Assembly (NCBI GenBank): GCA_003697105.1
Contig: RFFQ01000006.1
Coordinates: 1 to 5,756, forward strand
DNA from: Gemmatimonadota bacterium
Lineage (GTDB): Bacteria > 4572-55 > J002
Direction: 5' to 3'
Length of the DNA: 5,756 nucleotides
A program made the translations under genes and the position numbers. Positions 986 to 5,756 of this stretch are shown piece after piece. The number at the start of each line of letters is the position of its first letter. Positions within the stretch are counted from its first letter, which is position 1. Below the pieces are notes generated by a model. The model did no database searches and had not been told where the DNA came from. It saw only the letters and a program-made list of their open reading frames with translations.

Positions 986-2524
986 ATGAAACCGGTCAGT
1001 CTCGGATTGATATTCCTCGTACTCTGGGGATGTTCCCCAGAAAAACAAGATTTAAACACAGTCGGACCGGACCCGGACCCGCTTTTTGATGTAACCTTTT
1101 ACATTTACGACTATAATTCTCGGGAAAGACCCCTTGAAAATGTACGAGTAAGCCTGATTGACTATCCCTCACAAGAGGTTCTCTTTAGCGACCAAACCGG
1201 TGCAAACGGACGAACCACACCCTACCCACTCCGCACCAGCCAAAGCTTCCGATTAGCAGTGGAAGCCCCCGGCTTCACTTATCTCAATTCGGGAAAAATC
1301 TTTAGCCTAACCTACGTGGACTCGGTGATCTCGATCCCCCTGATTCCCCAGATCGAACCGCTGGCAGAAATACCGTTGTTCACGGATGAACCGATTTATC
1401 CCACCGGCGTAACATGGGGGAACAACCGGTTGTGGTTCTTGGGGGGTAAGAACCCTCACAGGTTAGATATCGATCCGCAAACGGTATCCCATAATAACCC
1501 TTGTGATACGCTCACCTATCTGAGAGTTTGGCCGGTTTATGTGGAAACAATTGCCAGAAAGCCAACCGAAACTACCGCGCGTTTATGTTTATCGGAGACC
1601 GCCACTACCCCATTGACGTGGGAAGTGTCGCTGGTAACAAGGGATAGCACTCCAACTACACCCTCATGGGTGAAAGAAATATATCCCACCCATGGAACCT
1701 TACGCGTACCGGGAAACTGCCAGCGAATTAACATTTGGTTTGATACAGACCAACCCGAAGGAGAATACCGCGCCGAACTGAAGGTGATAACCCAAACCCC
1801 CCTTTGCCAAGATACGATTTATACCAGTGTGACATTGGACGTCTATTATTATTACCTCTGGGAGACAGATACCTCCGGTGCAAATCCCACAAGGTATGAT
1901 TTAGATTGGTTCGCCGTTACCCCCGATACCCTACGCATGGACGTCCTCAAACCATACGCGTTAGTATGGGACTTACACTTTCTCGATGGTACCCTGTGGT
2001 CCAACTTTGGGAAACGTAGTACGAACAACGGAGATACATGGCTCTACTACCATACCGCAGAGAACCCCGTGTGCATTGGGCATCGTGTACCAACCACTCT
2101 AAATATTTTTGGGTCATTGCGCCCCGCACAGGATTTAGCCTATCAAGATGAGAATTATTTATGGGGATGCACGGAGCAATCAGTGATGCGATTGCCGACT
2201 CAGCAGTATAATATTCCGATTGAGTCAGAAGCGGTATTTAACTATACGAATATTATCCAGCAGGGAACAATTGGCGGAATTGCCCATGATGGGACAACCC
2301 TTTGGATGAAGTATACGGAAAGCAGTTTTATCTACGGTGCCACCCTTGATGAGACGAATACTCCGCCAGATGTCCCCAACCGCCAATACCACCTGATTGC
2401 CAATTACGCCCAATATGCCGACCTGACAACAGACCGAAACGGTCGATTTTGGCTGCTGGGGCGCCATACCAATGATACAGCATCACCATTTAAGTTAATC
2501 ATTTTTGAAATCCCCCAATTATAA
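986..2524 (+). CDS. exported multidomain lipoprotein (Ig-like, BACON-like and propeller-like modules), function unknown
   Basis: A 512-residue predicted lipoprotein. The type II signal peptide is short: Lys2, a hydrophobic core at about 5-14, then a lipobox ending LWGC with Cys16 as the lipidated residue. A Pro/Asp-rich linker (27-35) follows. Residues about 33-120 look like a carboxypeptidase-regulatory-like Ig domain (PLENVRV 49-55, SDQTG 68-72). Five propeller-like strands centred on Leu/Phe-Trp end at Trp150, Trp338, Trp393, Trp440 and Trp489; the last four are spaced 47-55 residues apart. Between the first and second, residues about 172-288 resemble a BACON-type Ig domain (PSWVKEIYPTHGTL at 226-239, then EGEYRAELKV at 258-267), ending in four tyrosines (287-290). 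No catalytic motif is visible. It is not SusD-like, since no TPR helices are seen. Its place directly before the receptor gene suggests a surface or periplasmic partner that binds ligand (inference). Domain names rest on pattern recognition only. Confidence 0.9.
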   Translation: MKPVSLGLIFLVLWGCSPEKQDLNTVGPDPDPLFDVTFYIYDYNSRERPLENVRVSLIDYPSQEVLFSDQTGANGRTTPYPLRTSQSFRLAVEAPGFTYLNSGKIFSLTYVDSVISIPLIPQIEPLAEIPLFTDEPIYPTGVTWGNNRLWFLGGKNPHRLDIDPQTVSHNNPCDTLTYLRVWPVYVETIARKPTETTARLCLSETATTPLTWEVSLVTRDSTPTTPSWVKEIYPTHGTLRVPGNCQRINIWFDTDQPEGEYRAELKVITQTPLCQDTIYTSVTLDVYYYYLWETDTSGANPTRYDLDWFAVTPDTLRMDVLKPYALVWDLHFLDGTLWSNFGKRSTNNGDTWLYYHTAENPVCIGHRVPTTLNIFGSLRPAQDLAYQDENYLWGCTEQSVMRLPTQQYNIPIESEAVFNYTNIIQQGTIGGIAHDGTTLWMKYTESSFIYGATLDETNTPPDVPNRQYHLIANYAQYADLTTDRNGRFWLLGRHTNDTASPFKLIIFEIPQL

Positions 2525-2570: not shown

Positions 2571-5132
2571 ATGAAACCTTCCATTTTTGGGATCATCTGT
2601 TTGCTGTTCTCTTTCGTCAAACTATCCATTGCCGGAATTACCGGTACACTGTCGGGACATATCATTGATAATGACACCCAGACACCGTTGGAAGGTGTCA
2701 ACGTGGTTCTGGTCGGAACAGATTTGGGCACTATCAGTGATGAAACAGGATATTTTGTGCTGAACAACATCCCTGGCGGAACCTATGCTGTGCGCTTCAT
2801 GCGGATCGGCTATACGACAAAAACGATCAAAGGGGTGGTCATCCTGATGGACCAGCATAAAAAGATCGATGTTCACTTGCAAGCCACGGCTCTGGACGTC
2901 GGAGCAGAAGTTACCGTCCATGCCCAACGACAGTTGTTACAGCAAGATGTCACCGCTACGATGCATATTACCACCGGTGAGGAAATCAATTTTATGCCGG
3001 TCAAGGACTTTCAGGATGCCATTAAACGAGAGCCGGGTGTTGTCGGCCGGCATGTGCGTGGCGGTCGCGAAACAGAAGTGCTCTATCTAGTGGACGGAAT
3101 CCCGATTCAAGAAGCCATTTATGGCGAAACCGGCGCAAACCTACCCAATAGCTCCATTATTGAGATGAGCTTACAAACGGGCGGTTTTAACGCCGAATAT
3201 GGAAACGCCATGAGCGGCGTGGTGAACGTCGTCACAAAGGAAGGTACGGCAAAAACACAAGGCTTATTCAAATATTACACAGATTATATCGGCGGGGACC
3301 AAAGCGATCATCTTAACCAATTTGAATTGAATCTTGGCGGCGGTTTATGGGGCGAAAAGAACAACTATTTCCTCTCAGCAGATTTCGCCACATCTGATAC
3401 GCGCTGGCGAACCCAATTTGACGGCAAAATTGATGCTCCCAACCTGATCCGCTATAACATCAATGGCAAAGCGGTGACCTACTTCCACCCGCGTCATAAA
3501 CTGGTGTGGCAAGGGATTATCTCCCATCAAACCTGGACCGATTACGAACACCCGTGGAAACGCCACTTAGAGGGACTACCCGAACATGAAAATAACAGCT
3601 ATCGCTACAGCCTGACCTACACCCATACCCTCTCCTCAAAAACCTTCTACAAAACCAGTTTAAGCCGGTTTTATGTGTTGAATCAAATTCTAGGGAAAAA
3701 TAATGGGGTCTATGAGATGGAGGATTACATCTTAGTGAGCGAACCGCCCCACTCAATCCGCTATTTTGTGGACAAACGCGATCCAACCGACCCTGACCCC
3801 TTGGTAAAACCCCAATGGCGCGATTCCGAGCAGATAATCACCATCGGTAAAGCGGACTTTACCAGCCAATTGAACCCATTCAACCAGCTAAAACTCGGTG
3901 CCGAATTCACCCATTATGATCTGTATGTCAACAATGTGGAATACGTGCTAATTGACCCCGATGCGATTCTACCCGGCTACCCCCCCGAAGCCGCTTATAG
4001 CGTCTATGTGACAAAATATGATTATCAGCCGGTTGCCGGTGCGGCGTATCTACAATTTAAAACCGAAGCCTTACAAGAAGTGACCCTCAATTACGGGGTA
4101 CGTTTTGACTTTCTCGATCCAAAAACCCACCGTCCCGCCGTCGAATTTGATTTCGAGCAAGGACGGAACCCGTTCCGCCCACAAGAAATCATCAATGATA
4201 AAACCGTACGGGCAGAATTCCAATATCAGATAAGCCCTCGCTTTGGGGTTTCCATGCCCATCACCGAAATTGATATGATCAATTTTAATTACGGGCACTT
4301 TTTCCAGTTCCCCCTGTTTAGCTACCTTTATACTAACCCCACTTACGATTTTAAGGGCTATAACTCATTGTTGGGCAATCCCGATTTAGCGGCAGAAAAA
4401 ACGGTCGCCTATGAAGTGGGGTGGGAACACTTGCTAACCGAGGATATTAAGTTCAGCGCCAACTATTTTAATAAAGATATTGAAAACCTCATTGATAAGG
4501 TAACATTTTACCTCTATGATGCCGAGTTGAATGCCACCAAACCCTTTGAGCAATATCGCAATTTATCCTTCGGGTCATCCTACGGGTTGGAATTTTATCT
4601 GGAAAAACGACGAGGTGTGGAAGCATGGAGTGGCTGGCTGGCGCATCTCTCCGGGAAGATTAGCTACACCTGGATGCACGCCAAAGGGTCAAGCTCCCAG
4701 TTTGGGACACAGTACGACCCCGAAGGGGTAATTACCGTCCCACCCCATGAATATTATCTCAGTTGGGATCAGCGCCATACGCTGGTAGCAAATGTGGATT
4801 ATCGCTTGCCCGAAAATTGGGGCATCAATGTGTTATTGCGGGTCAACAGTGGGCAACCGTACACCCCAGCAGACCCCGATCCCTTCGATACGGAAACCCC
4901 CGATCCCAATAGCAAACGCATGGAAAGTACAACCTACTTTGATTTTAAGTTGAACAAAGATATGACGTTTGGGTGGCTGTTCGCCTCGTGTTTCCTTGAA
5001 GTACTCAATGCGTTTGATGCCGATAATGTAATTTGGGTGGACCATAACGGGCAACCGGGTGGGGTGTATGCAGACCCGACAGCATGGGATGTGGGTCGCC
5101 GGATAAATCTGGGCATTCTCGGCAAGTTTTGA
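2571..5132 (+). CDS. TonB-dependent outer-membrane receptor with N-terminal carboxypeptidase-regulatory-like domain
   Basis: An 853-residue outer-membrane receptor. A Sec signal peptide ends near Ala21-Gly22. Residues about 23-105 form a carboxypeptidase-regulatory-like domain (PLEGVNV 39-45, SDETGYF 56-62, GGTYAVRF 69-76). The plug spans about 110-225: EVTVHAQR (113-120) sits where the TonB box and its linker are expected, followed by DAIKREPGV (149-157), LVDGIPI (173-179) and GGFNAEYGNAMSGVVNVVTKEG (204-225, typical of plugs). The rest is a 22-strand-type beta barrel with alternating aromatic strands, a LLGNPDLAAEKT motif (600-611), VLNAFDADNV (811-820) near the end and a terminal Phe853 expected for BAM recognition. 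The length is normal and no frameshift is seen. The family uses TonB-ExbBD energy to import large ligands; the ligand here is unknown. The start is weakly served by GAGA at 2562-2565. No SusD gene follows; the upstream lipoprotein is the likely partner. Confidence 0.97.
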   Translation: MKPSIFGIICLLFSFVKLSIAGITGTLSGHIIDNDTQTPLEGVNVVLVGTDLGTISDETGYFVLNNIPGGTYAVRFMRIGYTTKTIKGVVILMDQHKKIDVHLQATALDVGAEVTVHAQRQLLQQDVTATMHITTGEEINFMPVKDFQDAIKREPGVVGRHVRGGRETEVLYLVDGIPIQEAIYGETGANLPNSSIIEMSLQTGGFNAEYGNAMSGVVNVVTKEGTAKTQGLFKYYTDYIGGDQSDHLNQFELNLGGGLWGEKNNYFLSADFATSDTRWRTQFDGKIDAPNLIRYNINGKAVTYFHPRHKLVWQGIISHQTWTDYEHPWKRHLEGLPEHENNSYRYSLTYTHTLSSKTFYKTSLSRFYVLNQILGKNNGVYEMEDYILVSEPPHSIRYFVDKRDPTDPDPLVKPQWRDSEQIITIGKADFTSQLNPFNQLKLGAEFTHYDLYVNNVEYVLIDPDAILPGYPPEAAYSVYVTKYDYQPVAGAAYLQFKTEALQEVTLNYGVRFDFLDPKTHRPAVEFDFEQGRNPFRPQEIINDKTVRAEFQYQISPRFGVSMPITEIDMINFNYGHFFQFPLFSYLYTNPTYDFKGYNSLLGNPDLAAEKTVAYEVGWEHLLTEDIKFSANYFNKDIENLIDKVTFYLYDAELNATKPFEQYRNLSFGSSYGLEFYLEKRRGVEAWSGWLAHLSGKISYTWMHAKGSSSQFGTQYDPEGVITVPPHEYYLSWDQRHTLVANVDYRLPENWGINVLLRVNSGQPYTPADPDPFDTETPDPNSKRMESTTYFDFKLNKDMTFGWLFASCFLEVLNAFDADNVIWVDHNGQPGGVYADPTAWDVGRRINLGILGKF

Positions 5133-5153: not shown

Positions 5154-5186
5154 AAAAAAGGCGGAGCAACAGTCTCCGCCTTTTTT
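5154..5186. terminator. bidirectional intrinsic terminator between convergent genes
   Basis: A perfect 7-bp stem GGCGGAG (5160-5166) and CTCCGCC (5174-5180) encloses a 7-base loop. Six A's precede it and seven T's follow it (5181-5187), so each strand reads as stem plus U-tract. On the + strand it lies 21 bases after the receptor stop; on the - strand it lies 22 bases after the VOC stop. It should end both transcripts. Confidence 0.93.
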
Positions 5187-5194
5187 TGTTCCAG

Positions 5195-5683: not shown

Positions 5684-5756
5684 GGGTGCAAATAGAAACC
5701 CAGCCCTGAAGAATACTATTTGACCAGAAATCGCTTATATTAAGGGCAAAAGATCA
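5684..5756. other. non-coding region upstream of the VOC promoter
   Basis: No gene, terminator or RNA is recognised. It is A-rich and holds TTGACC (5720-5725) and TATATT (5736-5741), which are only 10 bases apart and do not make a promoter together. A divergent + strand gene may begin beyond the window. Confidence 0.4.

Follow-up and report, generated by a model that had tools for sequence, protein, structure and literature searches.

The protein of 512 amino acids encoded at 986-2524 of the window (the whole stretch of DNA analysed here, 5,756 nucleotides, which is an entire contig, G000:C107) is supported as a lipoprotein in which a series of propeller-type repeats accommodates a BACON/Ig domain, the architecture put forward in the original prediction. 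The support comes from the BACON homology of the inserted stretch and its Ig-like model when folded on its own, and from propeller homology on both of its flanks. Both domain types are themselves known, and a BACON domain inside a propeller was found nowhere else in the data searched; the novelty of this orphan lipoprotein lies in how known domains are arranged. The five blades probably form a complete ring closed by an N-terminal strand, judging from sequence, and we give slightly better than an even chance to an outer-membrane lipoprotein in which a stem domain bears a five-bladed ring with the BACON domain in blade 1, and which would act as partner of the receptor encoded downstream and take part in ligand capture.

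The lipoprotein and its inserted BACON/Ig-like domain

The protein features, the flanking genes and the terminator described here lie on the forward strand. The reading frame opens at ATG986, shortly downstream of a good ribosome-binding site (AAAGGAG), with a lipoprotein signal peptide (986-1033, residues 1-16) whose lipobox, LWGC, read from the sequence, places the lipidated cysteine at Cys16, as had been proposed. It is followed by an N-terminal transthyretin/CarboxypepD_reg-like domain (1082-1336, residues 33-117), for which a CarboxypepD_reg-type fold is plausible: residues 46-98 match CarboxypepD_reg at 17.2 bits (E 0.0068), under the Pfam cut-off of 32.3, and strands appear here in a weak model. 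This sub-threshold match is all that Pfam shows for the protein, with no match to BACON or BACON_2, and the NCBIfam and PDB sequence searches returned zero matches. Orthologues were found neither in 386 genomes nor in GTDB contigs, IMG/VR viral contigs and plasmids, leaving only paralogues in the protein's own genome; three weak orthologue candidates contained internal stops and were dismissed as chance. Because no orthologue was found, a full-length model was not obtainable, and the single-sequence AF2 model of the complete protein (pLDDT 36.9) was set aside.

The inserted domain (1502-1855, residues 173-290) is recognised through its paralogues. Residues 181-288 match two giant proteins encoded on contigs C124 and C163 of the same genome, and a profile of seven BACON domains from these two proteins, built with the window left out, scores residues 173-293 at 43.3 bits, a value reached by 0 of 1000 shuffles (best shuffle 11.5). 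Members of this seven-domain set match Pfam BACON_2 (best 1.3e-6), and the paralogous stretch homologous to the insert scores 28.6 against BACON_2, whose cut-off is 25. The motifs on which the domain had originally been recognised, PSW (226-228) and EGEYRAELKV (around 255-265), both lie inside the stretch with this BACON score. Four cysteines of the insert, C173, C201, C245 and C274, fall into two pairs, each jointly present or absent in eight of eight domains; this co-occurrence suggests two predicted disulphides, C173-C274 and C201-C245, and an extracytoplasmic location.

Folded by AF2 alone and with no alignment, residues 173-293 give an all-beta, Ig-like sandwich (pLDDT 66.5, pTM 0.59), whose top structural matches are PapD-like domains, ASH domains and a Porphyromonas gingivalis protein (2qsv), with Z up to 11.9, and whose viral structural matches include BACON-annotated phage proteins. 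The segment is an Ig-like domain of the PapD/ASH/BACON kind and not a propeller blade. When the BACON alignment was used as a profile to search the PDB, the matches stayed at chance level. A further BACON match in the genome, on C74, belongs to a subtilisin-like protein of unrelated architecture. The inserted BACON is of the type that the genome's two giants carry, and it was not found in the nearest classmate genome searched; it is therefore possible that the insert arose by shuffling inside the genome.

Blades and probable ring closure

Five tryptophans lie exactly where the original prediction had placed its Leu/Phe-Trp motifs, at residues 150, 338, 393, 440 and 489, and the predicted spacing is borne out as well: the last four are separated by 55, 47 and 49 residues, close to a period of 50, and the first gap measures 188, compared with a longest inter-blade stretch of 64 residues among 46 propellers. 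Five A-B hairpins can be read around them (GVTWGNNRLW, DLHFLDGTLW, DLAYQDENYLW, GIAHDGTTLW and DLTTDRNGRFW); the hairpin pattern occurs five times against 0.006 per shuffle, a figure that is illustrative only, the pattern having been fitted afterwards.

Two profiles locate these blades on both sides of the insert. The profile made from 46 propellers, with the window left out, matches residues 118-172 at 8.4 bits (0 of 1000 shuffles, shuffle maximum 4.6) and residues 290-512 at 12.6 bits (0 of 1000 shuffles, shuffle maximum 7.9), with no match to the N-terminal domain (-0.9 bits) or to the insert (-0.4 bits). Residues 172-288, modelled as Ig-like, are not seen as part of a regular blade. A profile of 160 blades gives exactly five matches, all in one phase (138-159, 323-336, 379-395, 428-440 and 478-495), with 0 of 500 shuffles as good. 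A less independent profile, drawn from the window's own five blades and aligned manually (MAFFT alignments of these blades were misregistered), separates five paralogous propellers from their shuffled versions, of which 0-3 in 200 were not outranked; a 28-position profile matched Toxoplasma TLAP2 at 4e-6. Unguided MAFFT alignment of 32 family propellers with the window placed family blades 1, 3, 4 and 5 at residues 140, 382, 430 and 475-477 and left the BACON domain mostly as a gap. Three comparisons were not significant: hhalign of the window's whole profile against the propeller family (probability 3%), direct hhalign, and an initial blade profile made from 25 blades of paralogues.

The series begins with a lone strand (1337-1396, residues 118-137, AEIPLFTDEPIY), the expected strand D of blade 5, positioned by homology in the MAFFT alignment. 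Blade 1 contributes strands A-B(-C) (1397-1483, residues 138-166, with W150), as indicated by the propeller match at 118-172 and the first of the five blade matches. Beyond the insert, a return segment (1856-1951, residues 291-322, LWETDTSGANPTRYDLDWFAVTPD...), whose MAFFT register is unstable, probably completes blade 1. Blade 2 (1952-2119, residues 323-378, W338) is the weakest of the five, with a negative blade-profile score when taken alone; blade 3 (2120-2266, residues 379-427, W393) and blade 4 (2267-2416, residues 428-477, W440) follow, each of the three with its own blade match. Blade 5 (2417-2524, residues 478-512 and the stop, W489) matches in the same way, consists of strands A-B-C only, and has a family-like end after strand C. 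The cysteines C363 and C395 (window 2072-2170) lie in neighbouring blades and are a candidate third disulphide.

The closest family is represented in the same genome by five propeller modules of the giants on C124 and C163. The profile of these modules has relatives in 35 of 386 genomes; among known propellers it matches 1l0q, of the YVTN type, at 4.7e-7, and those of WD40 and olfactomedin weakly. Scans of GTDB contigs and IMG/VR with the propeller alignments found nothing. Family members that were read out have five blades, a lone front strand and a final blade stopping after strand C, and near-ideal members score above the cut-off for Pfam Glu_cyclase_2, one of them also for SGL. In the MAFFT alignment, the start and end of the window protein align with this lone N-terminal strand and strand-C end. 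The five blades are probably a full ring because this closest family has five, with the same start and end; neither the insert nor a degenerate blade nor a partner protein would then be needed to close it. The original prediction was right that about five blades are recognisable, as five in-phase matches show; its further step, that something more is required to close the ring, is probably unnecessary in a family that is itself five-bladed. Ring closure is proposed from sequence and homology.

Two other arrangements of the same segments can be considered. The stretch YLWETD...TRYDLDWFAVTPDTLRMDVL (290-327) could be a blade of its own in a six-bladed ring, with the BACON domain between blades 1 and 2: a sixth LW, overlooked originally, stands at 291-292, 46 residues ahead of W338 and in keeping with the period, and family blade 2 fell near 280-300 in some of the MAFFT alignments. 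We regard this as unlikely, since residues 284-330 hold no blade signal (391 of 500 shuffles were equally good), the A strand of such a blade would coincide with the last BACON strand, and the propeller family is uniformly five-bladed. Still less probable is that there is no single ring, residues 118-172 being a relic hairpin, residues 323-512 a separate, open four-bladed repeat and the BACON domain an ordinary linker between them. The weakness of blade 2, the low pLDDT of the full-length model and the fact that the segments are linked by homology only would agree with such a broken layout; against it, residues 118-172 by themselves align to the first-blade region of the propeller profile (hmm 27-48), and the start and end suit a family whose ring is closed by a single strand at the N-terminus.

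Gene neighbourhood and proposed function

The lipoprotein gene lies between two others on the same strand. Upstream, 156-974 encodes a metallo-beta-lactamase-fold hydrolase (Pfam Lactamase_B, 5.7e-24) with an HxHxDH motif, in which sequence inspection saw no signal peptide; the gene ends 11 nt 5' of the lipoprotein start. Downstream, beginning 46 nt past the lipoprotein gene, 2571-5132 encodes a TonB-dependent-receptor-type protein composed of a CarboxypepD_reg domain, plug and barrel (Pfam CarbopepD_reg_2, 1.1e-16; Plug, 9e-07). A likely intrinsic terminator, read from the sequence as GGCGGAG...CTCCGCC with a T run, occupies 5157-5188, and the hydrolase, lipoprotein and receptor genes look like a single transcription unit. 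Related receptors in the same genome and in two others have gene neighbours that differ from those in the window. The contig breaks off, at 5697-5756, within an intergenic MITE-like repeat about 165 bp long that is bounded by terminal inverted repeats (CAGCCCTGAAGAATAC...GTATTCTTCAGGGCTG); elsewhere the genome has four further copies that are near-complete and one that is partial.

In the five-bladed reading that we prefer, the protein would run from the lipidated Cys16 through the transthyretin-like stem into a propeller whose N-terminal strand completes the ring; a BACON/Ig domain, pinned by disulphides, would emerge from blade 1. Exposed at the surface, it would be the probable partner of the receptor encoded next to it: the propeller would most likely sit over the receptor, bind a ligand at its face and hand it on, and the BACON arm would touch the receptor, its ligand or whatever surrounds them. 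That the protein forms such a complex and captures ligand on behalf of the TonB-dependent receptor is inferred by analogy with BtuG/BtuB and XusB/XusA.

The same architecture might serve another end. It is rather unlikely, though a shade less so than a sixth blade, that the protein acts at the surface as a stalked scaffold or adhesin, the neighbouring receptor not being its partner. BACON domains are commonly supposed to bind carbohydrate or mucin, and within the genome both the BACON and the propeller have their relatives in giant secreted proteins that carry a sorting-type region at the C-terminus; the window protein, on the other hand, is a compact lipoprotein encoded close ahead of a receptor gene, and a terminator follows only after the receptor. 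An enzymatic role, as a glutaminyl-cyclase- or Vgb-lyase-like propeller, we consider very improbable. Ideal members of the wider family match Pfam Glu_cyclase_2 and Vgb_lyase, and the profile of the window's blades finds weak matches to Vgb structures (E 0.5-0.9), but the window protein itself matches neither Pfam family, and blade homology indicates a fold rather than an activity.

If capture for the receptor is indeed its function, a small, complete five-bladed propeller joins the lipoproteins that may serve TonB-dependent receptors, one that belongs to neither of the seven-bladed Bacteroides families, BtuG and XusB, and holds an Ig domain within its ring. A recurrent coupling between BACON domains and five-bladed propellers would also be indicated, one for which the searched libraries have no family name. 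The general principle is unchanged, propellers with inserted domains being known already.

Comparison with known systems

The nearest relatives of the ring are uncharacterised, secreted proteins of the Glu_cyclase_2/Vgb/NHL-like five-bladed family (L074, L076, L078-L080, L085, L090 and others), which share with the window protein the five GLxxD...LW hairpin repeats, the lone first strand and the strand-C end; unlike it, no member seen has an insertion in the ring. The insert, in turn, resembles the BACON/PapD-like Ig domains (PF13004, PF19190) of the giants on C124 and C163 in length, in the PSW/DWV and TDQPxGxY motifs and in its cysteine pairs, at no more than 28% identity. In those giants complete BACON domains stand beside propellers, whereas in the window the BACON domain lies within the propeller and is, alone, below Pfam detection. 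The two giants, L067 (G000:C163) and L066 (G000:C124), have open frames of 3207 and 1477 amino acids, both cut by contig ends, and are made up of repeated BACON and five-bladed propeller modules, dockerin-like segments (DVTGDG.S.FDAARI) and the sorting-type region.

The opposite nesting of the same two domain types also exists. Ten members, from six genomes, have just the latter half of a BACON domain after the propeller, and in several the first half is readable ahead of it; such propeller-in-BACON modules were read in L078, L079, L080, L083, L090, L103, L104, L106, L110 and L111, and in L066/L067. Three of these secreted proteins were scanned and gave no family-specific Pfam match. We tentatively suggest, as a possibility that we hold below even, that BACON and the five-bladed propeller are a recurrent pair that nests either way, usually with the propeller in the BACON domain, and that here a local type of BACON has entered a receptor-linked propeller, yielding a capture protein with a second binding arm.

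Folded domains inserted in propellers are known from the integrin alpha-I domain and from the lectin domains of some sialidases, where the insertion is comparable and the domains and functions are unrelated. The window protein has no BtuG- or XusB-family match in Pfam, NCBIfam or PDB sequences, and the likeness to these systems lies in genetic organisation, a propeller lipoprotein being encoded with a TonB-dependent receptor in BtuG2-BtuB2 and XusB-XusA as in the window. That propeller lipoproteins can cap TonB-dependent receptors is established in Bacteroides: BtuG2 is a seven-bladed propeller that forms a stable complex with BtuB2 (PMC10404256), and XusB, also seven-bladed, binds its siderophore by a hook inserted in a blade (PMC13142918); both belong to other families and have no BACON domain, in contrast to the five blades and BACON domain described here. 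In Parabacteroides distasonis, the XusB operon includes an esterase gene (PMC13142918), which the order of hydrolase, propeller lipoprotein and receptor in the window resembles. By the same analogy, the BACON domain could play the role of an enlarged XusB-type hook.
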